This document shows positions 6,334-55,035 of a DNA stretch of 64,000 bases, piece after piece. Under the pieces are notes generated by a model. It searched no databases and was not told the DNA's origin. It worked only from the letters and a program-made list of their open reading frames with translations. Position numbers and translations under genes: made by a program. Position 1 is the first letter of the stretch, and every line of letters starts with the position of its first letter. Source of the DNA: Nocardia asteroides (GTDB lineage: Bacteria; Actinomycetota; Actinomycetes; Mycobacteriales; Mycobacteriaceae). The stretch is taken from contig CP082844.1 of assembly GCA_019930625.1 (NCBI GenBank), positions 620,001-684,000 on the forward strand. Direction: 5' to 3'.

Positions 6334-6597
6334 CTAACCGGCCAGGTCGTATTCGAATACGATCGGGTCGGACGACGCCATGCCCGCACGGTCGCCGCCC
6401 TCCCCCTCGGCTTCGGCAGTCTCGGCCCAGTACTCGGGCTCGCCGTACTTCGGCGCCGTCTCGGCGGTCCGCGTCCACGCCGCCGCGGCGGCGTACTCGG
6501 GGGCCGCCGCGGCGGCGTACTCGGGGGCCGCCGCGGCGGCGTACTCGGGGGCCGCCGCGGCGGCGTACTCGGCGAAGGCCCTACCCCATTCCCACAT
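6334..6597 (-). CDS. Small Ala/Glu/Tyr repeat protein, function unknown
   Basis: An 87-residue acidic protein beginning MWEWGRAFAEYAAAAAPEY. Residues 9-40 are four copies of an eight-residue unit EYAAAAAP (the last ends in W). A second half follows that is rich in Glu, Ala and Gly, with scattered EY or KYGEPEYW motifs, ending in VFEYDLAG. The gene is credible despite low complexity because a strong SD (GGGGAGGAG, 6 nt spacing) precedes the ATG and it is co-oriented with birA, 27 nt upstream of it. It has no signal peptide, and I do not recognise the family. The 24-bp DNA unit keeps frame if copies are gained or lost. Confidence 0.6.
   Translation of the reverse strand: MWEWGRAFAEYAAAAAPEYAAAAAPEYAAAAAPEYAAAAAWTRTAETAPKYGEPEYWAETAEAEGEGGDRAGMASSDPIVFEYDLAG
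6479..6574 (-). repeat. 24-bp tandem repeat, four units
   Basis: Four head-to-tail 24-bp units (6479-6502, 6503-6526, 6527-6550, 6551-6574) are identical except for the last two bases of the final one. On the minus strand each encodes EYAAAAAP in the small repeat protein. The unit length is a multiple of three, so slippage would change protein length without a frameshift. Confidence 0.9.
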
Positions 6598-42233: not shown

Positions 42234-42487
42234 GCTCGACTCCTCCAGCCGACGCGGATGTGTCCGATCGAGCGTTCAAGTCCAGGCTAGGCGAATCGCC
42301 GCGGATCGACCGCCCGCGCCCGGCTCCGTGTCGCCCAGACCTACTCGCCGGTAACAAGACCACCCTAACCGACCGGCGAGCCACCGCCCACAGCTCGGTG
42401 AGCCAACCGACACCGCCGTGTTCACCACCGCCGCCCCGCATCCACCTCCGGGTCGTGCGATCACCTCCTTACGCGGCCATACCACCT
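42234..42487. other. glpD-glpK intergenic region outside the repeat
   Basis: Of the 427 bp between the two divergent genes, 254 bp lie outside repeat copy A. The plus strand is strongly C-rich here. I see no coding content, clear promoter or tRNA. Promoters for both genes must lie here or in the repeat. Confidence 0.5.
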
Positions 42488-42643
42488 CAACTCCCGGTTT
42501 CGAGCGAAGCGAGACCGAGCATCCGCCGTTCGCGGCCCGGCTTGCGTCCGAGTGGCCGCCGCGTAGGCGACGAAGGAGCAAGCGGCGGTCGCTCGGACGC
42601 GAGCCACCGAGGGGCCGCGAACACGCCGCGCCGCGGGCGCGGC
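42488..42643 (+). repeat. Dispersed long-palindrome element, copy A (upstream of glpK)
   Basis: A 156-bp copy of an element seen three times in the window. It starts CAACTCCCGGTTTCGAGCG, contains the long inverted arms (outer GTTCGCGGCCC/GGGCCGCGAAC, inner GGCTTGCGTCCGAG/CTCGGACGCGAGCC, here with one wobble), and ends in GCCGCGCC-GCG-GGCGCGGC (42625-42643). The end lies 17 nt before the glpK ATG. Confidence 0.9.
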
Positions 42644-42660
42644 CAAAATACACTGCACGG

Positions 42661-44160
42661 ATGCGTCGCTATGTGGCCGCCATCGACCAGGGCACGACCT
42701 CGAGTCGGTGCATCGTCTTCGACCGGCAGGGACGCGTCGTCGGCGTCGCCCAGCGGGAGCACGAGCAGATCTTCCCTCGGCCGGGATGGGTCGAGCACGA
42801 TCCGGAAACCATCTGGCGCGATACCGAATTCGTCCTCGGTGAGGTGCTGGAGCGCTGCGGTCTCAGCGCCGAGGACATCGCCGCGGTGGGCGTCACCAAC
42901 CAGCGCGAAACCACGGTGGTGTGGGACCGCGAGACCGGCCGTCCGGTGCACAACGCGATCGTCTGGCAGGACACCCGCACCGACCGGCTGTGCGCCGAAC
43001 TGGCCGGCGACGCGGGACCGGCCCGCTACCAGGACCGCACCGGCCTTCCGCTGTCCACCTACTTCGCGGGGCCGAAGCTGCGCTGGATCCTGGACAACGT
43101 GCCCGGCGTGCGGGAGCGCGCGGAGGCGGGTGAGTTGTGCTTCGGCACCGTCGACAGCTGGGTGCTGTGGAAGCTCACCGGCGAGCACGTCACCGACGTG
43201 ACCAACGCCTCCCGCACCATGCTGCTGGACCTGCGTGCACTGCAATGGGATTCGGAAATCTGCGGGGAATTCGGCGTGCCGGAGTCGATGCTGCCGCAGG
43301 TGCGCAGTTCCTCGGAGGTCTACGCGGCGATCAGCTCCGGACCGCTGGCCGGGGTGCCGGTCGCGGGCATCCTCGGCGACCAGCAGGCCGCGACCTTCGG
43401 CCAAGCGTGCCTTTCACCCGGCGAGGCCAAGAACACTTACGGCACGGGCAATTTCATGTTGCTCAACACCGGTACCACGCCGGTGTTCAGTAAGCACGGC
43501 CTGCTCACCACCGTGTGCTACCGCCTCGGTGACGCGGACGCCGTATACGCCTTGGAGGGATCCATCGCGGTCACCGGGTCGCTGGTGCAGTGGTTTCGCG
43601 ACAATCTCGGCATCATCTCCGCCGCCGACGAGATCGAACCGCTCGCCCGCAGCGTCGAGGACAACGGTGGCGCTTACATCGTGCCCGCCTTCTCCGGACT
43701 GTTCGCGCCCCGCTGGCGCCCGGACGCACGCGGCGTGATCGCGGGGCTCACCCGTTTCGTCACCAAAGCGCACCTGGCGCGAGCGGTGCTGGAATCCACC
43801 GCGTTCCAGACCCGCGAGGTGGTCGACGCGATGCGGGCGGACGCCGAGTCCCAGCGGCTCGGTTTGGAGCTGACCACGCTGAAGGTGGACGGCGGCATGG
43901 TCGGCAACGACCTGCTCATGCAGTTCCAGTCCGACATCCTCGACGTGCCCGTGGTGCGGCCGGTGGTCAACGAGACGACCGCGCTCGGTGCGGCGTACGC
44001 GGCGGGCCTCGCCGTCGGCTACTGGTCGGGCACCGACGACATCCGCGACAACTGGGCCGCCGACAAGACGTGGCGGCCTGCCATGCCGGACGCCGAGCGG
44101 GACGAGCGCTTGGCCGCGTGGAACAAAGCGGTCGAGCGCACCTACGGCTGGGTCGGCTGA
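42661..44160 (+). CDS. glpK: Glycerol kinase
   Basis: A 499-residue FGGY-family kinase that phosphorylates glycerol to glycerol-3-phosphate, the substrate of GlpD encoded divergently. Visible are the ATP-binding [13 protein letters not shown], substrate block [34 protein letters not shown], the FGGY-type [24 protein letters not shown] and [17 protein letters not shown] 42661 follows the repeat element by 17 nt and has no SD; an in-frame extension through the repeat is not believed. The last 19 nt overlap the convergent aminotransferase gene. Confidence 0.97.
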
Positions 44161-45344
44161 GGGTTCCGCACCGCGACGGCGTGCGCGAGCCGGTCGACCG
44201 CCAGTTCCAGCGTCGGTTCGTCGGAGGTGGTGAAGCACATCCGCATCGAGTTGCGGTACCCGCCGCCCACGGCGAACGCCGCTCCCGGCACGTAGGCGAC
44301 CCCTGCGGCGAGCGCACCCGGAAGCAGCAGCTCGGTGTCGGTCCCGTCGGTGAAGTCGGCCCAGACGAACATGCCGCCCGACGCGTCGCTGCACCGTACG
44401 CGGTCCCCGAAACGGCTCCGCATCGCGTGCACGAGCGTCTTCGCGCGCTCGCCGTAGACGCCCCGGACATGATCGACGTGGGCGGTGAGCCATGCCGAGT
44501 CGGCGAGCAGGTCGGTGGCGATCTGCTGGGTGAGCGCCGAACCACACAGATCCGCGCCTTGCTTCAGCAGTTCGACCGCGCGGCACACCGGATCCGGCGC
44601 CACCATCCAGCCCACCCGCAGGCTCGGCGAGAGGATCTTCGATGCGCTCGACAGCCGGATGACGTTGCGAGAGTACGACGCGACCGGCGCCGGCGCGGGG
44701 CCGTCGAACCACAGCTCACCATAGGGATCGTCCTCGATCACCCAGAAGCCGTGCTCATCGGCCAAGCGCGCGAGCTCCGCACGGCGGCGGGAGCTCATGG
44801 TCACGCCACCGGGATTGTGGAAATTGCTCACCGTGTGCACCACGGCCGGGCGCTCGCCACGGGCGAGCAACTCGGTGAGCGCGTCGGTGCGCATCCCCTC
44901 GGCGTCCAGCGGCACCGCGGCGATGCGCGCGCCCGCGGCCCGGAAGACCTGCAGTGCGCCGACGTACGCCGGGTCCTCCACCACGACCAGCGCGCCCGGA
45001 TCGAGCAACACCTCGGCCAGCAGCGACAGCGCCTGCTGGGAACCGTGCGTGACGAACACCTCCGCGAGCGGCACCGGGCGACCGAGCCTGCCCGACTCCC
45101 GCTCGGCGAGGACCTCGCGCAGCGGCGCCCAACCCGGGGATTCGGTGTACTGCAGGCAGCCGTTGTGGCTCAGCGCGGCGGCCGCCGCCTCGGCCAGCCG
45201 GGCGCGCGGCATCAGTTCGGCGTCCGGCAGGCCACCGGCGAGGCTGACGATCTCGGCGCGCGCGGTCAGCTTCAAGAGGTCACGGATCGCCGAACTCCGC
45301 AGGCCGTCCAGCTTGCCTGCCAGCGGTGGGATGGTCGGCGACAT
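44142..45344 (-). CDS. PLP-dependent aminotransferase (LysN/Kat-type, class I)
   Basis: A 400-residue fold-type I aminotransferase without a GntR-type DNA-binding domain. Landmarks are [13 protein letters not shown] at the N-terminus, [30 protein letters not shown], the PLP Asp/Tyr in [11 protein letters not shown], and the PLP lysine in [18 protein letters not shown]. The family contains 2-aminoadipate and aromatic aminotransferases; with lat and pcd producing 2-aminoadipate 20 kb away, a role in aminoadipate turnover is possible but not shown. ATG 45344 has GGAGG at 7 nt spacing, better than the longer start at 45395. Its end overlaps glpK by 19 nt. Confidence 0.88.
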
Positions 45345-45461
45345 GGGAAGACCTCCGGGGAACGCCGTGGTACGCGATATCCCACTGTCGCACACGCCCG
45401 ACCAAAATCCGAAATATTCATCCCATGATCTGAGATCCGCCCCGGTAGCGGCCGTATCCGG

Positions 45462-46484
45462 CTACAGGCGATCCCGGATCGCGTAGACCACCGTCTTGCC
45501 GTCGCGGGCCACCGTGGTCACTGTCTGCCGGTATACCGTGGTGGTCCCGTCGGGCCGGTGTTCGGTCAGGTCCACGTCGAAGGTGTCGGTGGCCAGCTCC
45601 GTGATCCGCAAGCAGTGCGTGGTGCCGACCGGAACGTACTCATCGATGCCCTTCTGGATGCGGTCGGCGGTCGAGACGTTCTCCGCGTCGTCGGCGACGA
45701 ACCGCCGGGCCCGCTCACCGCTGCGCTCGACGTAGAAGGAGTACTGGAATCCGAGAATGGCGCCGGGGCCGCTACTGGTGTCACCCGTGCCGTTGCCGAC
45801 AGTCACCTTGCCGTCCTTGTTCGACGGGCAGCTCAACGCCGCGGTGGTGCCGCCGACACCGGGAGCGGCGCCACTGTCGCCGTTGTCACCGGATACCGCG
45901 ATGATCGTCACCGTCAACGCGATCAGCACCACGACCGCCGCGACCGCGCCGAGCACTCCCCAGCGTCGCGAATGACGAGAGCTTCGCACCGGCGCCGGAG
46001 TCGTGGGGACGCGCAGCGCCAGCCGCATGGCGATCGGGTCCTCCGCCCAGGACAGACCCGAGTCCGCCGGCGGAGGCGGCTTCGGTACGCCGCCCTCGGC
46101 GGTCGGCTGATTCCACCACGAGTCCTGCTGCTCGCCGCCCTTGGGCTGCGGGCGCGCGGCGGGCGGCTCGGGCGCGGCAGCGGCGGATTCGGCAAAGACC
46201 GTGGCATCCGGCGCGCGGAACTGCGACGCGAGAGGAGGCGTCGTCTCCGGCTCGCCCGCGGGTCGCCAACCCAGTTCGGGGTGGTCGGTGGGCTGCTGCG
46301 GCACCTGCCAGCGCGGTCCGGTATCGGTGCCCATCGGCGGACCGAATTCCGCGATGGGCGGACCGAATTCCGCAACGGGTGGCCCGAACTCGGAGACCGG
46401 CGGCCCGAACTCCCCCAACGACGGACCGAATTCCGACCCGGAGGAGTCGGATTCGTTCTCCCTCGCATCACCCTCGGAGGTCAC
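45462..46484 (-). CDS. Single-pass membrane protein with EFGPP repeats, function unknown
   Basis: A 340-residue protein. The N-terminal part (about 15-50) has five repeats of a seven-residue unit built on EFGPP, then a Pro/Gln/Trp-rich disordered region. One transmembrane helix (about 175-200, WGVLGAVAAVVVLIALTVTIIAV) follows a basic RSSRHSRRW stop. The exported C-terminal domain of ~140 residues has two cysteines and reads as a beta-rich fold (ILGFQYSFYVERSGERARRFVA, TTVYRQTVTTVARDG). I do not recognise a named family. GTG 46484 follows AAAGGA at 6 nt. It is downstream of, and probably cotranscribed with, the Pro-rich secreted protein gene, but a hairpin lies between. Confidence 0.75.
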   Translation of the reverse strand: MTSEGDARENESDSSGSEFGPSLGEFGPPVSEFGPPVAEFGPPIAEFGPPMGTDTGPRWQVPQQPTDHPELGWRPAGEPETTPPLASQFRAPDATVFAESAAAAPEPPAARPQPKGGEQQDSWWNQPTAEGGVPKPPPPADSGLSWAEDPIAMRLALRVPTTPAPVRSSRHSRRWGVLGAVAAVVVLIALTVTIIAVSGDNGDSGAAPGVGGTTAALSCPSNKDGKVTVGNGTGDTSSGPGAILGFQYSFYVERSGERARRFVADDAENVSTADRIQKGIDEYVPVGTTHCLRITELATDTFDVDLTEHRPDGTTTVYRQTVTTVARDGKTVVYAIRDRL

Positions 46485-46510
46485 ACCCAATCCTTTCCCA
46501 GGACGCACAA

Positions 46511-46538
46511 GTGGGGCGGCCGCGAACGACCGCCCCAC
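46511..46538 (-). terminator. Hairpin between the two Pro-rich protein genes
   Basis: GTGGGGCGG and CCGCCCCAC form a perfect 9-bp stem with a 10-nt loop, 20 nt after the upstream gene stop and 26 nt before the next start. There is no T-run, so partial termination or processing is as likely as full termination. Confidence 0.5.
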
Positions 46539-46557
46539 CCGTCGAGATCAGCACGTA

Positions 46558-47577
46558 TCAGTACTGGAGTGAACCACCCCACTGGGTGGTGACACCACCC
46601 ACATCGACGGTTTGCGGAGCGAAATCGCCCGGCTGAAGCGGAAGCTTAACCTGTGCGGCGGCCTCCAGGGCGGCCGCGCCGCCCGGCTGCTCCCGGATCC
46701 AGTCCTCCACCGCGGCCTTGGCCACGTTCAGCTGGGTGGTGTCGAACACCGCGGTGGTGTTGTTCGAGGCCAAGCCCTCGCCGCCGGTGTAGGTGGTCAG
46801 CTTGACGGTGTTCTTGTCGACGAACTCCACCGAGACACCGGCTTCACCCGCACCGGTCGGCGTGCGGTAGCCGATGGTGCCGACGTAACCGGCCTCGTTG
46901 CTGAAGTGGTGGGTGTTGGCCACGTGACCGGGCAGCACGGTGCCGCCGTCGATGTTGGCGCCGATCTCCGCGTGCGGACCGGTCATCTCCACGACCGGCG
47001 CCGGCGGGGCGGCTTCCAGGCGCGGCGCCTGCCAGCGCGGCTGCGGCTGCACCAGCGTGGAACTCTCCGGCTCCCGCGCCTCGGCGTTGCCGCCCTGGGT
47101 GCCCGGCTGCGGGGCAGCCTGCTCCCCGGGCTGCGGCGCGGCCTGATCCGGCACGACCGCGGGCTGCGGATCGCTGGGCTGCTGCTGGCCGGGAACCGGC
47201 AGCGGCGCGACGCGGGGGGTGGTCACGCCCGGCTGGGTCGGTTGGGCCAGCCGCGGATCCTTCTTCTGATCGGGCACGGCCTGGTTCTGGTCCGGCGTGG
47301 TGACGCCGGGCTGGCTCGGCGTCGGCTTGCTCTCCGGCTTCTGCCGATCCTGCTCGGATTCCGGCTTGTCCGGTTCCGGCTGAGTGGTCTCGGGGGTGCT
47401 CGGCGACTCGTTCACGCCCGGCTGCGCCGGAGCGGGCGTCGGCGGAGTGGTCGGCTGATCGTTGGGAGCCGCCCCCGCCGGCGCAGCGAAGAGAGTGGCC
47501 ACTGCAGCCGCTGTGGCCAGCGGCAACGAGGTGCTCGCCATCGCTCGCTGCGCCCGACTCGGCTTACGATGTTTCAC
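46558..47577 (-). CDS. Secreted Pro/Gln-rich protein, function unknown
   Basis: A 339-residue exported protein. GTG 47577 opens a signal peptide (KHRKPSRAQRAMASTSLPLATAAAVATLFAAPAGA) with cleavage expected after AGA. About 160 residues of Pro/Gln/Thr-rich sequence with recurrent QPGVTTP and QPGEQ/QPGTQ motifs follow, probably a cell-wall-spanning linker. The C-terminal ~125 residues form a globular domain (GPHAEIGANIDGGTVLPGHVANTHHF, GVSVEFVDKNTVKLTTYTG). There is no cysteine, so no lipid anchor or disulfide. The family is unrecognised. An AAGGG sequence lies about 10 nt upstream. A perfect 20-bp palindrome sits 74 nt before the start. Confidence 0.75.
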   Translation of the reverse strand: MKHRKPSRAQRAMASTSLPLATAAAVATLFAAPAGAAPNDQPTTPPTPAPAQPGVNESPSTPETTQPEPDKPESEQDRQKPESKPTPSQPGVTTPDQNQAVPDQKKDPRLAQPTQPGVTTPRVAPLPVPGQQQPSDPQPAVVPDQAAPQPGEQAAPQPGTQGGNAEAREPESSTLVQPQPRWQAPRLEAAPPAPVVEMTGPHAEIGANIDGGTVLPGHVANTHHFSNEAGYVGTIGYRTPTGAGEAGVSVEFVDKNTVKLTTYTGGEGLASNNTTAVFDTTQLNVAKAAVEDWIREQPGGAAALEAAAQVKLPLQPGDFAPQTVDVGGVTTQWGGSLQY

Positions 47578-47884
47578 TTTTCGCAATCCCTTCCCGGGTG
47601 CGGCCTGGTCGGCCGCATTCAGTTGTCCCCTGGGTGAGACGCCTGATCGCCGAACGGCCCGGGCCGTTCGCTCGTGCCGATTTGGAAAGGACCCATCCCC
47701 CCACACCGAACTCCGCGACCCTCCTGCGATCGCATCTCTGCCGAGAGTGAACCACATGTGCGCACGATGGGCAACGCTGCGAATGACCAAGGGTGGCAAG
47801 ACTCCCCGCGTCCCCGCCCCGCCCCGAGTTCTCGGGGCGTGATGTCCTGAATCGGACACGGCACAGCGCGCGCCGAAACGGAAG
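47578..47884. other. Intergenic region with a palindrome and a hairpin
   Basis: These 307 bp hold a perfect 20-bp palindrome CGAACGGCCCGGGCCGTTCG (47651-47670) and, just after the lpdA stop, a hairpin GCCCCGA-GTTC-TCGGGGC (47821-47838) that could terminate lpdA transcription. The promoter of the secreted protein gene must lie here. No gene is seen. Confidence 0.6.
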
Positions 47885-49288
47885 TCAGTCCAGGTCGTCG
47901 TGCCGCATCAGCAATCGCGCCGCCTCGGTCACCGAACCCGTCAGCGAGGGGTACACCGAGAAGGTCTGGGCCAGGTCGTTGACCGTCAGGTTGTTCTGCA
48001 CCGCAAGGGCGATCGGCAGGATCAGCTCCGAGGCGATCGGAGCGACGACGACGCCGCCGATCACCACGCCGGTCGCGGGGCGGCAGAAGATCTTGACGAA
48101 ACCGCGTCGCAGCCCGGACATCTTGGCGCGGGGGTTCGTGTTCAGCGGCAGCATCACCGTGCGGGCGGGGACCTCACCGTTGTCGATCGCGTTCTGGCTG
48201 ACGCCGACGGTCGCGATCTCCGGCCGGGTGAACACCGCGGAGGCAACGGTCTTCAGGCGAATCGGGCTGACGCCCTCCCCGAGCGCGTGGTACATCGCGA
48301 TGCGTCCCTGCATCGCGGCCACCGAGGCCAGCGGCAGCAGGCCGGTGCAGTCGCCCGCGGCGTAGATGCCGGGCACCGACGTGCGCGAAACGCGATCCAC
48401 CCGCAGGTAGCCGCCGCGGTCGAGTTCGATGCCGACCCGCTCGAGTCCGAGCCCGGCGGTGTTGGGTGTCGAGCCCACGGTCATCAGCGCGTGCGAGCCG
48501 GAAACCGTGCGTCCGTCGGACAACTTGACCACGATGCCGTCGGCGGTGCGCTCCACCGCGTCGGCGCGGGCGTGCTTGACCAGTTCGACGCCGCGTTCGG
48601 CCAGCGCGTCCTCCAGCACGAGCGCCGCGTCGGCGTCCTCCCCGGGCAGAACGCGGTCGCGGCTGGAGACCAGCTTCACCCGCACACCCATTTCGGTGTA
48701 GGCGGAGACGAACTCGGCGCCCGTCACACCGGAACCGACGACCACCAGGGTCTCCGGCAACTCCTCGAGGTCGTAGAGCTGACGCCAGTTGAGGATGCGT
48801 TCACCGTCCGGCTCGGCGCCCGGCAGCACGCGCGGGCTCGCGCCGGTGGCGATCAGCACCACCTCGGCCTCGATGGTCTGCTGCGCGCCGTCGGCCAGCT
48901 TGGCCAGCACGCGGTGCGCGGCCAGCCCGCCGGCGCGGTCGATCAGCTCGCCGTACCCGGCGAGCACGGTCACCCCCACGGTCTGCAGCTTGGAGCGGAT
49001 ATCGGAGGACTGCGCCAGGGCCAGCGCCTTCACGCGCCCGTTCACCTCCGCCAGCTGCACCTGCGCCTGGTTCGGGTCCAGGGTGATCCCGAGATCGCGA
49101 GCGCGGCGCAGGTCGGTGCGCACGCCGGTCGAGGCGATGAAGGTCTTGGACGGGACACAGTCCCAGAGCACACACGCGCCGCCGATGCCGTCGGAGTCGA
49201 CCAGCGTCACCGACGCTCCGTGCTGTGCCGCCACCAGGGCCGCCTCATAGCCGGCCGGTCCGCCGCCGATGATCGCGATGCGGGTCAT
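47885..49288 (-). CDS. lpdA: LpdA-type FAD-dependent pyridine nucleotide-disulfide oxidoreductase
   Basis: A 467-residue flavoprotein of the disulfide reductase family and homologue of M. tuberculosis LpdA (Rv3303c), an NAD(P)H:quinone reductase. The FAD site is IAIIGGGPAGYEAALVAAQ, the second nucleotide site VVVGSGVTGAEFVSAY, and the FAD Asp block GIYAAGDCTGLLPLAS. The redox motif reads GGACVLWDCVPSKT: both cysteines (39 and 44) are present, whereas I recall the M. tuberculosis protein having Ala at the first. The C-terminal His-Glu pair of lipoamide dehydrogenases is absent (VYPSLTGS), so lipoamide reduction is unlikely. ATG 49288 has GGAGG at 5 nt. Confidence 0.93.
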   Translation of the reverse strand: MTRIAIIGGGPAGYEAALVAAQHGASVTLVDSDGIGGACVLWDCVPSKTFIASTGVRTDLRRARDLGITLDPNQAQVQLAEVNGRVKALALAQSSDIRSKLQTVGVTVLAGYGELIDRAGGLAAHRVLAKLADGAQQTIEAEVVLIATGASPRVLPGAEPDGERILNWRQLYDLEELPETLVVVGSGVTGAEFVSAYTEMGVRVKLVSSRDRVLPGEDADAALVLEDALAERGVELVKHARADAVERTADGIVVKLSDGRTVSGSHALMTVGSTPNTAGLGLERVGIELDRGGYLRVDRVSRTSVPGIYAAGDCTGLLPLASVAAMQGRIAMYHALGEGVSPIRLKTVASAVFTRPEIATVGVSQNAIDNGEVPARTVMLPLNTNPRAKMSGLRRGFVKIFCRPATGVVIGGVVVAPIASELILPIALAVQNNLTVNDLAQTFSVYPSLTGSVTEAARLLMRHDDLD

Positions 49289-49461
49289 TGATACCTCCGC
49301 TCGTGCTTCGCGCCGGGATCTCCGGCACGGGTAAACGTTATCCGGCAACCTCCTCGCACTACCGAGCGCGTTACCGGTGCGCAACAGTTCCGCACCCCGC
49401 GCCGCGCCGCAGGTGCGGCAATCAAACGCGGTCTGCGAAGGTTATTGGCTACCCTTCTCTG

Positions 49462-49935
49462 GTGCCGATCTATGCCGCCTATGGGTCCAACATGGACTCG
49501 ACGCAGATGCTCGAGCGCTGTCCGCACTCCCCCATGTCCGGGACGGGCTGGTTGGAGGGCTGGCGGCTCACCTTTGCCGGTGATGACATCGGCTGGGAAG
49601 GGCCTCTCGCGACGGTCGTGGAGGATCCCAATTCCCGGGTGTTCGTCGTGCTCTACGACGTGTCCCCCGAGGACGAACAGCGGCTGGACCGCTGGGAGGG
49701 CTCGGACTTCGGTATCCACAAGAAGATCCGACTGCGCGTCACCCGCAACGCCGACGGCGGCGAACCCACGCTGGCCTGGCTGTATGTGCTGGACGCCTAC
49801 GAGGGCGGCCTGCCCTCGGCCCGCTACCTCGGCGTGATCGCCGACGCCGCCGAAAAGGCGGGAGCGCCAGAGGATTACGTCCACGCCCTACGCACCCGCA
49901 ACAGCCGGAACGTCGGCCCGGGCAACTTCGGCTGA
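49462..49935 (+). CDS. Gamma-glutamylcyclotransferase-like protein
   Basis: A 157-residue GGCT/AIG2-fold protein. The N-terminal VPIYAAYGSNMDSTQMLERCP contains the YGSNM substrate-binding loop of the family; the acidic catalytic position is in DEQRLDRWEG. Family members cyclise gamma-glutamyl amines or peptides to 5-oxoproline; actinobacterial substrates are unknown. GTG 49462 has no clear SD. It is divergent from lpdA, and this neighbour pair is conserved in M. tuberculosis (Rv3303c-Rv3304). A perfect 15-bp hairpin lies between it and the convergent amidohydrolase gene. Confidence 0.88.
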   Translation: MPIYAAYGSNMDSTQMLERCPHSPMSGTGWLEGWRLTFAGDDIGWEGPLATVVEDPNSRVFVVLYDVSPEDEQRLDRWEGSDFGIHKKIRLRVTRNADGGEPTLAWLYVLDAYEGGLPSARYLGVIADAAEKAGAPEDYVHALRTRNSRNVGPGNFG

Positions 49936-49955
49936 CCGCGACAGTCCGCCGACGT

Positions 49956-49994
49956 CAGCGGCGTGGCCGACCCGAGGGTTCGGCCACGCCGCTG
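49956..49994. terminator. Bidirectional hairpin terminator
   Basis: CAGCGGCGTGGCCGA (49956-49970) and TCGGCCACGCCGCTG (49980-49994) pair perfectly over 15 bp with a 9-nt loop. The site lies midway between the convergent GGCT-like and amidohydrolase genes, so it can serve both directions. Confidence 0.75.
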
Positions 49995-50044
49995 CACCGG
50001 CAACGCCCCGTGTGACGAACAACAGCGCCGGTGTGACGAAGAAC

Positions 50045-51307
50045 TCAGCGCGCGCCGAGCACGAGATTGCTCAGCACCCGCACGCCGACCGCGAGGGCAC
50101 GCTCATCGATGTCGAAGGTGGGCTGGTGCAGGTCCAGCTGTTCGCCCTCCCCGGACCAGACGCCCAGGCGCGCCATCGCGCCCGGCACCTCCTCGAGATA
50201 CCAGGAGAAGTCCTCGCCACCGCCGGACTGCAGAGTGTCGGCCAGCGCGTCGGGGCCGAGCGCGCGGATCGCGTCCTCGAAGATGCGGGTGGAGTGCTCG
50301 TCGTTGACCACAGGAGGCACGCCGCGCCGGTAGTTCAGCTGGTAGCGCACGCCCGTCGGGGCCAGCAGGCCGTCGACGATCTGCCGCACCATCGGCTCCA
50401 GCAGCGACCAGGTGGCGTGATCTCCGGTGCGGATGGTGCCGGTGAGCATGCCGGTCTGCGGAATGGCGTTGGGCGCTTTTCCCGCGCTCACCGCACCCCA
50501 CACCATCACGGTGCTGGTGCGCGGGTCGATGCGACGGCTGAGCAGGCCCGGCAGGCCGGTGATGACCGAGCCGATCGCGTAGACCAGGTCGCTGGTCAGG
50601 TGTGGACGGGAAGTGTGGCCGCCCGGCGAGTCGAGCACCAGCTCGATGGTGTCGGCGGCGGAGGTGATCGCACCGACGCGGATGCCGACCCGGCCCACTT
50701 CCAGGCGCGGGTCACAATGCAGCGCGAAGATCCGCTCCACACCCGTCATCGCGCCCGTGGCGACCACGTCGATCGCACCGCCCGGCATGACCTCCTCGGC
50801 GGGCTGGAACACCAGCCGCACCCCGACCGGCAGCTCCGGCACCTCGGCCAGCGCCAGCGCCGTGCCGAGCAGGATGGTGGTGTGCGCGTCGTGGCCGCAC
50901 GCGTGCGACACGCCGGGCACCGTCGAGGCGAAGGGCAGTCCGGTGAACTCCTGCAGCGGCAGCGCGTCCATATCGGCGCGCAGGCCGATTCGCGGCCCGT
51001 CCGGCCCGATGTCACAGATCAAGCCCGTGCCGCCGGGAAGTACCTGCGGCGCCAGGCCCGCCTTGGTCAGCCACGCCGAGACGAACTCGGTGGTGCCGAA
51101 CTCGGTACGGGACAATTCCGGGTTGGCGTGGATGTGCCTGCGCCATTGGACGAGATCGACCGTGTGATCGGCCAGCCACGACTCCACCGCTTCCCGCCCG
51201 GATCCCACGGTCTCCGACGCCGCGGAGCCGCCGGTGCTCTCCACGGCCACGCGGATACCCGCTGCCTGGCCCGTCGCCGGCGCCGCCGAACGGCCGGTTG
51301 TGCTCAC
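50045..51307 (-). CDS. amiA1: M20-family amidohydrolase (AmiA1-like)
   Basis: A 420-residue metallopeptidase-fold amidohydrolase of the M20D group (N-acyl-amino-acid, hippurate or peptide hydrolases). Metal-ligand motifs are ADMDALPL, SHACGHDAHT with Cys-Gly-His, FQPAEEVMPGG and a late GGGEDFSWYL. The first ~35 residues (TGRSAAPATGQAAGIRV) are a non-conserved extension. GTG 51307 overlaps the stop of the upstream paralogue gene (51304-51307), so the two are coupled. The pair corresponds to M. tuberculosis Rv3305c/Rv3306c. The true substrate is unknown. Confidence 0.92.
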   Translation of the reverse strand: MSTTGRSAAPATGQAAGIRVAVESTGGSAASETVGSGREAVESWLADHTVDLVQWRRHIHANPELSRTEFGTTEFVSAWLTKAGLAPQVLPGGTGLICDIGPDGPRIGLRADMDALPLQEFTGLPFASTVPGVSHACGHDAHTTILLGTALALAEVPELPVGVRLVFQPAEEVMPGGAIDVVATGAMTGVERIFALHCDPRLEVGRVGIRVGAITSAADTIELVLDSPGGHTSRPHLTSDLVYAIGSVITGLPGLLSRRIDPRTSTVMVWGAVSAGKAPNAIPQTGMLTGTIRTGDHATWSLLEPMVRQIVDGLLAPTGVRYQLNYRRGVPPVVNDEHSTRIFEDAIRALGPDALADTLQSGGGEDFSWYLEEVPGAMARLGVWSGEGEQLDLHQPTFDIDERALAVGVRVLSNLVLGAR

Positions 51308-52545
51308 CGAATGTCCTCCTGTCGTTGAACTAGCCGTTGCAACAACCTGTCTCTATGGATGTCATCGCGGGCGACGGCGATAGCGGTACGCGCGAGGGCG
51401 AGCGCACCGTCGAGGACCGCACGATCCGCCGAAGCGTTGACGCTGGCCGCGGCGAAGCCGGGCTGATGTGTCACCGCACCACCGGCATCGATGCCGATGA
51501 CCGGGTGGATCCCCGGAATGACGTTGGTGACGTTCCCCATATCGGTGCTGCCCAGCGGCCGCTGCGCCTCGAACTCCGGAGCCAGCGGCACGCGTCCCAA
51601 TCCGGCGAGTTGCTCGCGATAGACGAGCAGCAACTCCGGATCCGGGGTCAGCTCGGTATACGTCGGCGCGAGCGTCCGGATTTCGTGGGTGCAGCCGGTC
51701 GCGAGGGCGCCCGCCTCGAAACAAGCCGACGCTCGTCGCATCAGATCGTCGAGGGATGCGGAGTCGACTGCGCGTAGGTAATACAGCAGTTCCGCACGTC
51801 CGGGCACGATGTTGGGAGCTACGCCACCGTCGCCGACTATACCGTGCAGTTGCTGGCCGGGCAGGAGATGCTGCCGCAGCAACCCCAGAGCGACCTGTGC
51901 GACGGTCACCGCGTCGCCCGCGTTGCGGCCCTGCTCCGGGGCCGCGCTGGCATGCGCCTCACGCCCGTGGAAGACCACCGAGACGTCGGCCAGAGCCAGC
52001 GACCTGGCGCCGACGATGTCGAGCGGACCCGGATGCACCATCATCGCCATCGCGACGTCATCGAACACCCCATGTTCCAGCATGAGCACCTTGCCGCCGC
52101 CGCTCTCCTCGGCGGGGGTGCCGAACACCAGCACAGTCAGGTCCAGCGCGTCGGCGACCTCGGCGAGACCGAGCGCCGCCCCCACCGCGGACGCGGCGAT
52201 GACGTTGTGCCCGCAGGCATGCCCGATCTCGGGCAGCGCGTCGTACTCGGCGCAGATGCCGACGGTCAGCGCCCCGCTGCCATAGCGTGCTCGGAACGCC
52301 GTCGGCAGACCGGCGACGCCGTTGTCGATCTCGAAGCCACGCTCGGCGAGCGGAGCGACGGTCTTGGCGACGCTGCGGACCTCCTCGAACGCCAGCTCGG
52401 GTTCGGCGTGGATCGCGTGTGACAGGCCGATCAGCTCGGCCGACGCCGCTCGGATCGCGGCGTCACTGCGACCGGCCGGGTCGACCTCGCACACGGCGTT
52501 GCCGTCGTGTTGCGATTCCTGGCGCCCGCTGCGCGGTGGTGGCAT
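51304..52545 (-). CDS. amiB1: M20-family amidohydrolase (AmiB1-like)
   Basis: A 413-residue M20D amidohydrolase, paralogous to the downstream gene. It has EYDALPEIGHACGHNVIAASA, GTPAEESGGGK, a dimerisation domain with FHGREAHASAAPEQGRNAGDA, and LGSTDMGNVTNVIPGIHP. The related p-aminobenzoyl-glutamate hydrolase subgroup shares the GSTDMGNV motif, so folate breakdown products are a possible substrate class. ATG 52545 is chosen as it begins a plausible N-terminus; an in-frame extension to 52824 would read through the dispersed repeat and is rejected. The repeat terminal hairpin lies 33 nt upstream of this ATG. Confidence 0.9.
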   Translation of the reverse strand: MPPPRSGRQESQHDGNAVCEVDPAGRSDAAIRAASAELIGLSHAIHAEPELAFEEVRSVAKTVAPLAERGFEIDNGVAGLPTAFRARYGSGALTVGICAEYDALPEIGHACGHNVIAASAVGAALGLAEVADALDLTVLVFGTPAEESGGGKVLMLEHGVFDDVAMAMMVHPGPLDIVGARSLALADVSVVFHGREAHASAAPEQGRNAGDAVTVAQVALGLLRQHLLPGQQLHGIVGDGGVAPNIVPGRAELLYYLRAVDSASLDDLMRRASACFEAGALATGCTHEIRTLAPTYTELTPDPELLLVYREQLAGLGRVPLAPEFEAQRPLGSTDMGNVTNVIPGIHPVIGIDAGGAVTHQPGFAAASVNASADRAVLDGALALARTAIAVARDDIHRDRLLQRLVQRQEDIR

Positions 52546-52995
52546 GCAACACAGTCTCGCACTGCTGTGTTTGTTTATGCAGCGCCTACGGCGCTGCGTG
52601 TTCGCGGCCCCCTTGTGGCTCGCGTCCGAGCGGCCGCCGCTTGCTCCTTCGTCGCCTACGCGTCGGCCACTCGGACGCGAGCCGGGCCGCGAGCGGACAA
52701 TGCTCGGTCTCGCTTCGCTCGAAAGACGTGGTTGTGCCCGTGTGGTGGAGACGACACCTCGACCTGCGGACTTGGGGCCTGCTATTCGTCGGCGGTCGTC
52801 TTCGTGCGGACCGGTGCAACTCATATCCGCCCGCGCGCGACGGTGCCCCGAGAGGAGCCGAGGTATGAGCCGGCTGTCCGAGCGCGGCGCGCGCCGGGTC
52901 CAAAGGGGCGGGCTCAGCCTGCGGCGAATGCCAGGGTCTCCGAGGTCGACGGAATCAGCCCGCCACGAACACCGAGCTCCCCGAGCCGGACGGAA
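52546..52995. other. Intergenic region between amiB1-like gene and enoyl-CoA hydratase gene
   Basis: These 450 bp contain repeat copy B (52579-52724), about 190 bp without recognisable features, and two degenerate 41-bp copies of the 3' end of the neighbouring enoyl-CoA hydratase gene. A short dyad (AACACAG and CTGTGTT on the minus strand, 52548-52571) lies between the repeat and the amiB1-like ATG. No gene is seen. Confidence 0.55.
52579..52724 (-). repeat. Dispersed long-palindrome element, copy B (upstream of amiB1-like gene)
   Basis: A 146-bp minus-strand copy. The core from TTTCGAGCGAAGCGAGACC to GGGCCGCGAACAC differs from copy C at only about four positions. The terminal hairpin is GCAGCGCC-GTA-GGCGCTGC (52597-52579, minus strand). 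Its end is 33 nt before the ATG at 52545. The first ~10 bp shared by copies A and C (CAACTCCCGG) are not present. Confidence 0.9.
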
Positions 52996-53036
52996 TCAGC
53001 CCGCCGCGAACGCCAGGTTCTCGGGGGTGGTCGGCA
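52914..53036 (-). repeat. Degenerate 41-bp tandem repeat of a gene 3' end, three units
   Basis: Three units with exact 41-bp spacing start at TCAGCC on the plus strand (52914, 52955, 52996). The last covers the final codons and stop of the enoyl-CoA hydratase gene; the other two are diverged copies lying just beyond the stop, each repeating a CGGGCTGA- or CAGGCTGA-like end on the minus strand. Confidence 0.75.
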
Positions 53037-53724
53037 CCGCGAGACCGGCCAGGGCCTTCCCGTGCAAGGCGCGCTTGATCACCGGCAGGTTGGGCTTGCG
53101 GTTGCTCGCCAGGGCCGCCGCCCGCTCGATCGCGGTCGCGAGCAAATCGGGGGCTTCGGCCTTGCCGTCGGCGATGCCCGCGGCGATGGCCTCGTCCGCC
53201 GCGTAGCGGTGGCCGGTGGTCATCGCCTGCACACAGACCTGGTTGGTCAGCCGCTCGGTGAGCAGGGCGTTCATCCCGATGGTGAACGGCATGCCCAAGT
53301 GCACCTCGGGCAGGCAGTAGAAGCCGCGATCGGCGCGCATCATCCGGAAGTCGTGCGAGGTGGCCAGCATGGCCCCCGCGCCGAAGGCATGGCCGTTGAT
53401 CGCGGCCACGGTCGGCAGCGGGAAGGCGAGCAGGCGGGTGTAGAGCGAGTGCACGCGGTCGAGGTAGCCGTGCATCTTGTCCAGGTTGCCGAACAGCCAG
53501 TCGGTGTCCAGACCGTTGCTGTAGAACTTCCCGGTCGCGGTGGTCACCAGCGCGGCAGGTCCCTGGGAGCTCTCGACCTCGTCCAGCAAGCCGTGGAATT
53601 CGTCGATCCAGTCCGGGTGGAAACGGTTCTCGCTGTCCGTCTGTCCCTCGGTGCCGAGGTACACGACGAACACTTCACCTTGGCGTTCGAGATACGGCAT
53701 GCGGTGCAGCGTATCGGGCCACAT
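52996..53724 (-). CDS. Enoyl-CoA hydratase/isomerase-family protein
   Basis: A 242-residue crotonase-fold protein. The two oxyanion-hole segments are GKFYSNGLDTDWLF and INGHAFGAGAMLATSHDFRMM. The Glu pair used by true hydratases is not obvious at the usual places (CLPEVHLGMPF carries one Glu), so isomerase or other crotonase activity is equally likely, resembling plant-type delta3-delta2 enoyl-CoA isomerases in the NGLD motif. Start ATG 53724 or the internal ATG 53700 (MPYLERQGEVFVV) are both plausible. It lies on the same strand as the amidohydrolases but 450 bp upstream of them; the 3' end has been tandemly copied downstream. Confidence 0.85.
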   Translation of the reverse strand: MWPDTLHRMPYLERQGEVFVVYLGTEGQTDSENRFHPDWIDEFHGLLDEVESSQGPAALVTTATGKFYSNGLDTDWLFGNLDKMHGYLDRVHSLYTRLLAFPLPTVAAINGHAFGAGAMLATSHDFRMMRADRGFYCLPEVHLGMPFTIGMNALLTERLTNQVCVQAMTTGHRYAADEAIAAGIADGKAEAPDLLATAIERAAALASNRKPNLPVIKRALHGKALAGLAVPTTPENLAFAAG

Positions 53725-54072
53725 CGAACACCCCTACTCGCGGGTAGAAAGTCGAATGCCGACCCGCGACGAGCAACGCCCGACCCGACCTTTGCGATGC
53801 CGGCCCATGGTCGCGCCCCTCGATGCCGCCGATCCCGATGCGGCACGACTGATCCGAAGGCGACGAGAACTCCAGCCAGTCGGCCAGGCGTCGTCCAACC
53901 GCGCTGACACCCGCCGCGACCACACCCGGCCACCGCCCACCCGACCTGGCCAACATCCAGCTACCAGCCACCGGTGGGAAGCGTGCCAGCAGGACGACCG
54001 CCCATGCGATCACACCGGCCGATGCCGCCGCCGGGGCTCGGCTGCATCACCACCGACGCGCCCACACCCGCC
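53725..54072. other. Intergenic stretch upstream of repeat copy C
   Basis: These 348 bp lie between the divergent enoyl-CoA hydratase gene and repeat copy C. The plus strand is C-rich and purine-poor, much like the stretch that precedes copy A. Open frames cross it, but none has an SD or recognisable protein content. I see no RNA gene. Confidence 0.5.
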
Positions 54073-54228
54073 CAACTCCCGGTTTCGAGCGAAGCGAGAC
54101 CGAGCATTGTCCGTTCGCGGCCCGGCTCGCGTCCGAGTGGCCGACGCGTAGGCGACGAAGGAGCAAGCGGCGGCCGCTCGGACGCGAGCCACCGAGGGGC
54201 CGCGAACACTCAGCGCCGCAGGCGCTGA
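54073..54228 (+). repeat. Dispersed long-palindrome element, copy C (upstream of deoD)
   Basis: A 156-bp copy. Outer arms are GTTCGCGGCCC (54113-54123) and GGGCCGCGAAC (54198-54208); inner arms are GGCTCGCGTCCGAG (54124-54137) and CTCGGACGCGAGCC (54177-54190), perfect over 14 bp. The terminal hairpin is TCAGCGCC-GCA-GGCGCTGA (54210-54228), ending 15 nt before the deoD ATG. It aligns end to end with copy A. Confidence 0.92.
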
Positions 54229-54243
54229 CAATCAAACAGAGCT

Positions 54244-55035
54244 ATGGTGACGATCATGCTTGCCGAACAGGCCGCCGAGGCGATCGCCGAACGTACGGGA
54301 GTGTCACGCCACCGGGTCGCGGTGGTGCTGGGGTCGGGCTGGCAGGACGCGGCCGCGGAGATCGGGGCGCCGCGGGCGTCGGTTCCGATGCCGGAGCTGC
54401 CGGGGTTCGGGACACCGACCGCCCAGGGCCATGTCGGCATGGTCCATTCGGTTCAGGTGGACGACAACGCCGTGCTGCTGCTGATGGGCCGCCAGCATCT
54501 CTACGAGGGCTACCAGCCCGCCGATGTGGTGCATCCGGTGTCGGCGGCCGTGGCGGCGGGCGCGGAGATCGTCGTGCTGACCAACGCCGCGGGCGGTATC
54601 CGGCCCGGCCTCCGTGTGGGTGAGCCGGTGCTGATCAGCGACCATCTCAACTTGACCGGTCGCACGCCGCTGGCAGGCGCGACGTTCGTCGACCTGGTCG
54701 ACGCCTGGGACCCCGAGTTGCGGGCGGTCGCCAGGGAGATCGACCCAAGCCTGACCGACGGCGTCTACGCGGGCCTGACGGGGCCGCAGTACGAGACACC
54801 CGCCGAGATCCGGATGCTGCGCACGATCGGCGCGGACCTCGTCGGCATGTCCACGGTGCTGGAAGCGATCGCCTGCCGCGCGCTGGGCGCCCGGCTGCTG
54901 GGCATCTCGCTGGTCACCAATCTGGCCGCGGGGGTGACGGGCGCGCATCTGTCCCACGCCGAGGTGCTCGCCGAAGGGCACGCCGCGGCGCCACGGCTGG
55001 GCAAACTGCTGCGCGGCGTGCTGGAACGGGTGTAG
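54244..55035 (+). CDS. deoD: Purine-nucleoside phosphorylase
   Basis: A 263-residue trimeric-type purine nucleoside phosphorylase that splits inosine or guanosine with phosphate, in salvage. Motifs are [13 protein letters not shown] (phosphate loop), [47 protein letters not shown] and [12 protein letters not shown] 54244 lies 15 nt after the terminal hairpin of repeat copy C and lacks an SD; ATG 54256 is a second possible start (MLAEQAAEA). Its TAG directly abuts the ATG of the phosphomutase gene, indicating an operon. It is the M. tuberculosis Rv3307 homologue. Confidence 0.95.

Follow-up and report, generated by a model that had tools for sequence, protein, structure and literature searches.

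The 64,000-nucleotide (nt) stretch of Nocardia asteroides DNA analysed here (assembly GCA_019930625.1, contig CP082844.1, positions 620,001 to 684,000; hereafter the window, with coordinates counted from its first letter) carries three near-identical copies of a long palindromic element, which precede glpK, an M20 amidohydrolase gene and deoD. They prompt the question of what such an element is and what places it beside these genes. An initial annotation had considered either a mobile element of the repetitive extragenic palindrome (REP) or miniature inverted-repeat transposable element (MITE) type, with a target preference for 5' leaders, or a structured leader controlling translation. We found that the copies are dispersed, present or absent at orthologous sites, conserved in structure and placed by a rule at the edges of genes, and that at two genes the native hairpin is absent from the filled loci. 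The reading that we prefer, to which we would give an even chance, is that these are small, non-coding, polar, REP-like mobile palindromes specific to Nocardia, which overwrite gene flanks and can replace terminators.

The two copies in direct orientation (42471-42646 and 54056-54231) are 91% identical across 176 nt, and the third, on the minus strand inside 52569-52745, is 84% (177 nt) and 92% (166 nt) identical to them. A covariance model of the family returned three full-length strong copies in the window (137, 132 and 128 bits), its remaining five matches being antiparallel self-hits (29-35 bits) or scoring below 19 bits. Alignment and model (84-92% over 166-177 nt) uphold the three near-identical copies of the initial annotation where it had placed them, in different neighbourhoods and beside genes that are indeed unrelated. 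Its unit of 146-156 bp holds as to the three copies, but the similarity runs further 5' than it had quoted; likewise, the palindromic core is present, but the 3' end reaches past it into a further hairpin and then a conserved tail.

Read 5' to 3', the element is composed of a weak 5' part, a 5' hairpin, the long palindrome, a terminal hairpin (hp3) and the tail AAATCAAACACAG. Conservation of the 5' part is clear over ~30 nt and fainter further out, and the 5' hairpin lies outside the matches of several more distant species, which begin at query base 29. In copy 3, on the plus strand in front of deoD, the fold places the 5' hairpin at 54080-54102 and, together with pair counts in 44 copies, the long palindrome at 54113-54207, with the outer arms GTTCGCGGCC/GGCCGCGAAC, and hp3 at 54210-54228, whereas the tail (54229-54241) follows from the alignment; the RNA fold of this copy has a z score of -6.8 and beats 200 of 200 dinucleotide shuffles. 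The tail is adjoined by a -10-like TATGGT (54243-54248), 7 nt 5' of the ATG at 54256, a start kept in relatives across the 30 deoD loci compared. The core of copy 1 (palindrome, hp3 and tail; 42526-42655, plus strand, 128 bits and a repeat match), whose likeness to the deoD copy starts at 42471, has at its end a -10-like TACACT (42649-42654, plus strand), 6 nt 5' of the ATG (42661) of glpK, which encodes an FGGY kinase (Pfam). The core of copy 2 (52565-52696, minus strand, 132 bits) is followed by a -10-like GAGACT (52553-52558, minus strand), 7 nt 5' of the conserved ATG of the M20 amidohydrolase gene at 52545, where element-free relatives have AACACT or similar in the box position.

The family extends over the genus and has so far been found only in Nocardia. 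This genome has 27 covariance-model matches, and 58 BLAST matches at E <= 1e-3 when antiparallel self-matches of the palindrome are included. A 159-nt consensus matches 102 of 118 Nocardia genomes and fails to match 16, and with the covariance model, in a survey that scored up to 87 candidates per genome, 35 of 39 are positive, with 1 to 69 matches each, and four have none. Among 200 genomes drawn from the order, all three Nocardia match; the other 197 are negative except for 14 with a single marginal match (E 6e-5 to 9e-4). At least 120 stretches of named genomes contain a 24-base piece taken from the 5' hairpin, and the 80 of them that were listed are all Nocardia. Phage records gave no match, and plasmid records a single one, on a 2.66-Mb replicon of Nocardia farcinica. 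Since the copies differ, as do their neighbourhoods, and recur across 102 of 118 genomes, duplication during assembly was ruled out. No account of the element was found in the literature searched, which comprised titles and abstract openings, most subscription papers being outside its coverage.

The placement of the copies was analysed in 342 non-overlapping element hits from 211 sequences (210 fetched loci and the window). Retaining hits that had 40 nt of flank and in which a tail could be detected, and merging identical junctions, left 155 tails, or 78 sites once those with similar downstream DNA were grouped; 14 nested rows were counted only at sites without any other row. Copies without the 5' hairpin are under-represented, because most loci were fetched through its 24-base piece. 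Genes were called with a custom codon-score script, start-codon distances being approximate, and its calls in the window and in 20 stretches of this genome served as the null for uniform insertion. The tail end faces a start at 43 sites, a stop at 34 and neither at one. At stop-facing sites it lies on or within 4 nt of the stop codon in 26 of 34 cases, against an expectation for 4 nt of 2.1% under uniform insertion, or 8.2% with only spacers of up to 150 nt (P = 6e-22), and within 17 nt in 30 of 34. At start-facing sites the motif TAnnnT occurs 0-3 nt past the tail in 15 of 43, versus 0.77% per test in DNA further downstream. A TANNNT -10 motif is reported for a related actinobacterium, with no conserved -35 and 26% leaderless genes (PMC3898074).

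A second sample of 42 copies, taken best-scoring first (29 of 50 matches in the genome G007 and 13 of 56 in G005), is not an independent replicate, since both genomes were already in the first. Here 19 of 23 stop-facing tails end at -12 to +4, the four exceptions being one at +12 and three followed by a second partial copy, and TAnnnT follows the tail in 7 of 19 start-facing sites; the 5' edge of the core lies within 20 nt of the previous gene in 0 of 39 (median 234 nt). Docking is thus polar, the tail end sitting on gene edges and the other end far from genes. At many stop-facing sites the stop codon is inside the tail. The tail is well suited as an adapter, in that its complement contains TTTGA, an opal stop, that TAG, TAA or TGA arise in other frames from variant tails, and that a few changes separate its A-rich part from a -10 box. 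The genes examined that have their stop in the tail are full length by profile matches, which reach the last position in S15, 210/211 in ClpP, 441/442 in GlmM and 286/287 in 3-hydroxybutyryl-CoA dehydrogenase, and S15 has native-looking codons right up to the stop, as judged from the profile. At one locus the distance between tail and gene takes three different values (L112, L004, L184).

The same structure recurs across the family. The core has 131 positions and 42 pairs, 33-34 of them in the long palindrome, and in 44 copies 98.5% of the cells are paired. Double changes occur in 139 cells, versus 32.4 +- 4.5 after shuffling and at most 17 in slid versions, and involve 18 of 23 pairs of the inner stem, which varies with compensation, 5 of 7 in hp3 and none of 10 in the outer helix, whose arms are nearly invariant. 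The 6 of 10 invariant pairs of the outer helix, free of double changes unlike the inner stem, would be expected if a chromosome-structuring or repair protein read the outer arms and the repeats were kept for it. We consider such a binding site improbable, as the patchy orthologous presence and the lack of matches in four of 39 genomes argue against a core chromosome function, and the gene-edge rule would be left unexplained. Counted with one copy per site, G-U exceeds A-C on the tail strand at start-facing (67:10) and stop-facing sites (53:13), although in unpaired columns C-to-T is no more frequent than G-to-A (0.066 vs 0.063). The excess is carried mostly by a few positions, and counted per position it becomes 17:6 (P = 0.03) and 14:10 (P = 0.54). 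These substitutions hint that the tail strand itself may fold, regardless of the direction of the neighbouring gene.

A stable, covarying, RNA-like structure, together with the position of the three window copies just 5' of starts, is also what would be expected of a cis-acting RNA leader, with riboswitch-like control of the downstream gene. This is very improbable in our view, given that the neighbouring genes are unrelated, that 34 of the 78 sites are at stops of convergent genes, and that Rfam 15 has no match at the element, the two hits obtained being at chance level (E 0.44 and 1). In addition, each of the window copies ends upstream of a -10-like box located 6-7 nt before the start, and such a box is shared by relatives that lack the element at deoD and the M20 amidohydrolase gene, the two genes compared; the elements should therefore lie in front of the promoter and outside the leader, which speaks against the translational leader of the initial annotation. 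Its observation that the same end faces the start codon is correct for the three window copies, but not genome-wide: 43 sites against 34 (P = 0.36), and 23 against 15 relative to transcription in tandem spacers (P = 0.26), rule out that this end always faces a start, and with 34 of 78 sites at the stop side of a convergent gene the proposed target preference for 5' leaders finds no support. The alternative of a REP/MITE-like mobile element fits the dispersed, genus-wide copies that are present or absent at orthologous sites.

Variant forms were also seen. In L266 and L180 -10-like boxes are preceded by a module of hairpin and tail that resembles the 3' end of the element and lacks the long palindrome. 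Tandem or nested copies are present in L167, L175, L193, L096, L050, L164 and L141, with a tail and then a further 3' piece that starts at CCGCGAAC, CCCGGCTCG or CGAGCC. A sister form with other outer arms (e.g. GGGTTTCGGCC or GGGGTTGAGGCC) occurs in L409, L411, L414, L416 and L418, 3' of the stop of the pyrophosphatase gene, and in L224 and L225, and likewise begins a few nt or less from stop codons.

Filled and empty orthologous sites were found at the deoD, inorganic pyrophosphatase, amidohydrolase and deoxyribonuclease IV genes. Eight of 30 deoD loci are element-free, with a spacer of 103-141 nt (L161, L163, L164, L165, L168, L174, L177, L178), and in most filled ones the 3' end of the element is directly 5' of CTATCGT or CTATGGT. 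In L166 a second copy, in the opposite direction, adjoins the TACGCT of the divergent enoyl-CoA hydratase gene, and the comparison of deoD loci revealed that many copies are internally deleted. Just 5' of the enoyl-CoA hydratase gene, the window also has the palindromic CTACTCGCGGGTAG (53734-53747), which looks like an operator and is found, as such or in a near form, at the same place in nearly all deoD loci, filled and empty alike.

The pyrophosphatase gene is filled in G005 and empty in this genome and in G007. In G005 its stop is still codon 163, with GGH* changed to GSH*, and the native hairpin is lost, while the opposite gene retains its own; an unaltered native C-terminus precedes the copy in G046 (L413) and the sister-form ones of five further loci. 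At the amidohydrolase gene at 50045-51307 (minus strand) the 3' spacer (49936-50044) is empty here, the protein ending in GAR*, and filled in five close relatives, three of which end in GSV*, GSV* and GCV* at the same length and two of which are two codons longer. Deoxyribonuclease IV ends in HVG* in empty relatives versus HCV*, HCA* or CCV*, at the same length, when filled; in L005 the native RAV* is unaltered, so the tail-like bases there are at least partly native. No target-site duplication was seen by eye at two empty/filled pairs, where the native flank is replaced.

Loss of the native hairpin was counted at the pyrophosphatase gene and this amidohydrolase gene, a strong hairpin being one of at least 11 bp. 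Such a hairpin lies no more than 85 nt from the stop in 33 of 47 empty loci and in 0 of 12 filled ones (P = 9e-6, treating related loci as independent). At the amidohydrolase gene alone the counts are 16 of 24 versus 0 of 5 (P = 0.01), and a stricter count that also required a T-run gave 8 of 25 versus 0 of 5. Loci were sorted as filled or empty with a regular expression written by eye, sister-form arms included, and the hairpin count excludes L441, which is misaligned, and loci with too little flank.

These results would fit a sequence of events in which the family spreads as a non-autonomous polar palindrome, probably moved in trans by an enzyme and perhaps by way of a folded single strand. 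Its tail end would be brought to a gene edge (the stop of a convergent gene, a -10 box or a start codon), or would survive only there, and the native flank, native terminator hairpin included, would be lost up to the last nucleotides protected by selection. The tail could then restore what was overwritten, by contributing an opal stop through its complement TTTGA, a -10-like CAAAAT or the first base of a GTG start. The hairpins may then stop transcription, serving stop-facing genes as a portable boundary of the transcript (a terminator or 3'-end block) and start-facing genes as an insulator on their upstream side.

Several observations weigh against this reading. The sequences counted are related and not independent, and 28 of the 43 start-facing sites have no TAnnnT at the tail; in four of these 28 a GTG start falls on the last base of the tail, which reads CAAAAT or AAAAAT near the -10 distance. 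Five of the 12 filled loci in the hairpin count are of the sister form, without which it becomes 0 of 7 (P = 7e-4), and the pyrophosphatase gene alone, sister form left out, gives 17 of 23 empty versus 0 of 2 filled (P = 0.09). The T-run count at this gene shows no difference (5 of 23 empty versus 2 of 6 filled); the T-run criterion was judged too strict for the genus, and the hairpin-only criterion was adopted after the first result was seen. There is no U-tract on either side of hp3. The G-U preference for the tail strand extends to stop-facing sites, at which the host mRNA carries the opposite strand, a bias that fits propagation better than a role as mRNA terminator. Finally, no mobilising enzyme was found by the Y1 search of this genome, and no autonomous copy in the fetched loci; there, the search for a gene between split element halves gave three candidates, namely a 3.9-kb span with four open reading frames (ORFs) >300 nt and two spans of ~350 nt without such an ORF.

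The gene-edge rule could also be a product of later trimming, if a selfish REP or MITE inserted anywhere in spacers, small deletions trimmed the DNA up to the stop, -10 box or start, and the hairpins had no host function. The three tail positions at one locus (L112, L004, L184) and the numerous internally deleted copies favour such trimming, and the missing rather than displaced native flank at two sites and the very uneven copy number (0 to 69 matches) would agree with it. Nevertheless, trimming is expected on both sides, yet docking is seen on the tail side only (0 of 39 at the other end), and the stop keeps its codon position at deoxyribonuclease IV, at pyrophosphatase and in three of the five filled amidohydrolase loci. 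Targeted replacement is favoured by the one-sided docking and by a stop position that is mostly retained, and we consider trimming a possible but doubtful explanation. A stronger version of targeting, which we regard as unlikely, is that of a mobile DNA that recognises the edge of the gene or transcription unit itself, is copied via a folded single strand by a putative recombinase, and replaces the gene end up to an in-register stop, or the promoter up to the -10 box. If this were true, terminators and promoter boundaries would be carried around the genus as portable parts. If the preferred reading is right, gene ends across the genus are being rebuilt by a repeat with a stop codon and hairpins of its own. 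This would provide a natural experiment, with orthologous genes with and without their native terminator in many species, and would extend the REP-type stop-codon docking of other phyla to promoters and to terminator loss, in Actinobacteria without a REP-associated tyrosine transposase (RAYT). The finding also raises the question of what moves the element.

With regard to known repeats, the REP-like mobile palindrome that we prefer differs from a MITE in that no terminal inverted repeats were seen by eye at its outer ends (5' part versus tail), the palindrome being internal. ERIC, RUP and BOX elements are long imperfect intergenic palindromes of 100-200 bp, non-coding and with no own transposase known. 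The Nocardia element resembles them in these respects and is not known to share their sequence; we know of no exact polar docking on gene edges for them. The hairpin near one end also calls to mind integron attC sites, Helitron/IS91 elements and group II introns, with none of which a kinship is claimed. The closest likeness is to the GTAG and CGTC REPs, which are described as small stem-loops, the tagged end of the GTAG type often giving a stop codon to flanking ORFs and the CGTC type seemingly lacking a dedicated transposase (PMC3733652). In common with these, as far as that text describes them, the Nocardia repeats are dispersed extragenic stem-loops in tens of copies (27 here, up to 69 in another genome), near or overlapping coding regions, with compensated stem variation and one unpaired tagged end that often supplies the stop codon of the flanking ORF; as with the CGTC type, no dedicated transposase was matched to them. 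By the same source, they differ in the tag, which is AAATCAAACACAG beside a terminal hairpin instead of GTAG or CGTC, in the 131-position core with a long palindrome and second hairpin in place of single stems of 5-13 bp, and in that the tagged end docks on -10 boxes and starts as well, native terminators being missing where the element sits; nor is Nocardia among the phyla named for these REPs. Unlike REPs that have a RAYT, there is none in this genome (0 matches to Y1_Tnp, PF01797), and Y1_Tnp occurs in 19 of 118 Nocardia genomes versus 102 of 118 for the repeat. The family behaves like a REP at stop codons, yet by tag, size or transposase it is not a member, and appears as a new, Nocardia-specific REP-like variant.

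Effects on the host have been described for two types of repeat. REPs of E. coli that lie 15 nt or less from a stop codon are reported to stall ribosomes (PMC12306157), and DNA uptake sequences, which are short repeats forming close complementary pairs, are mentioned as acting as terminators (PMC2267715). The Nocardia element would share with the latter, as described there, the use of a dispersed repeat as a terminator hairpin, and differs in being one long polar element with its own tail.

Two further features of the window lie apart from the element. On the minus strand, 4789-4856 matches the Rfam family of the ASdes small RNA (72 bits versus a gathering score of 40), and 6455-6572 is a tandem repeat with a 24-nt unit, of which several units are perfect and one is decayed.

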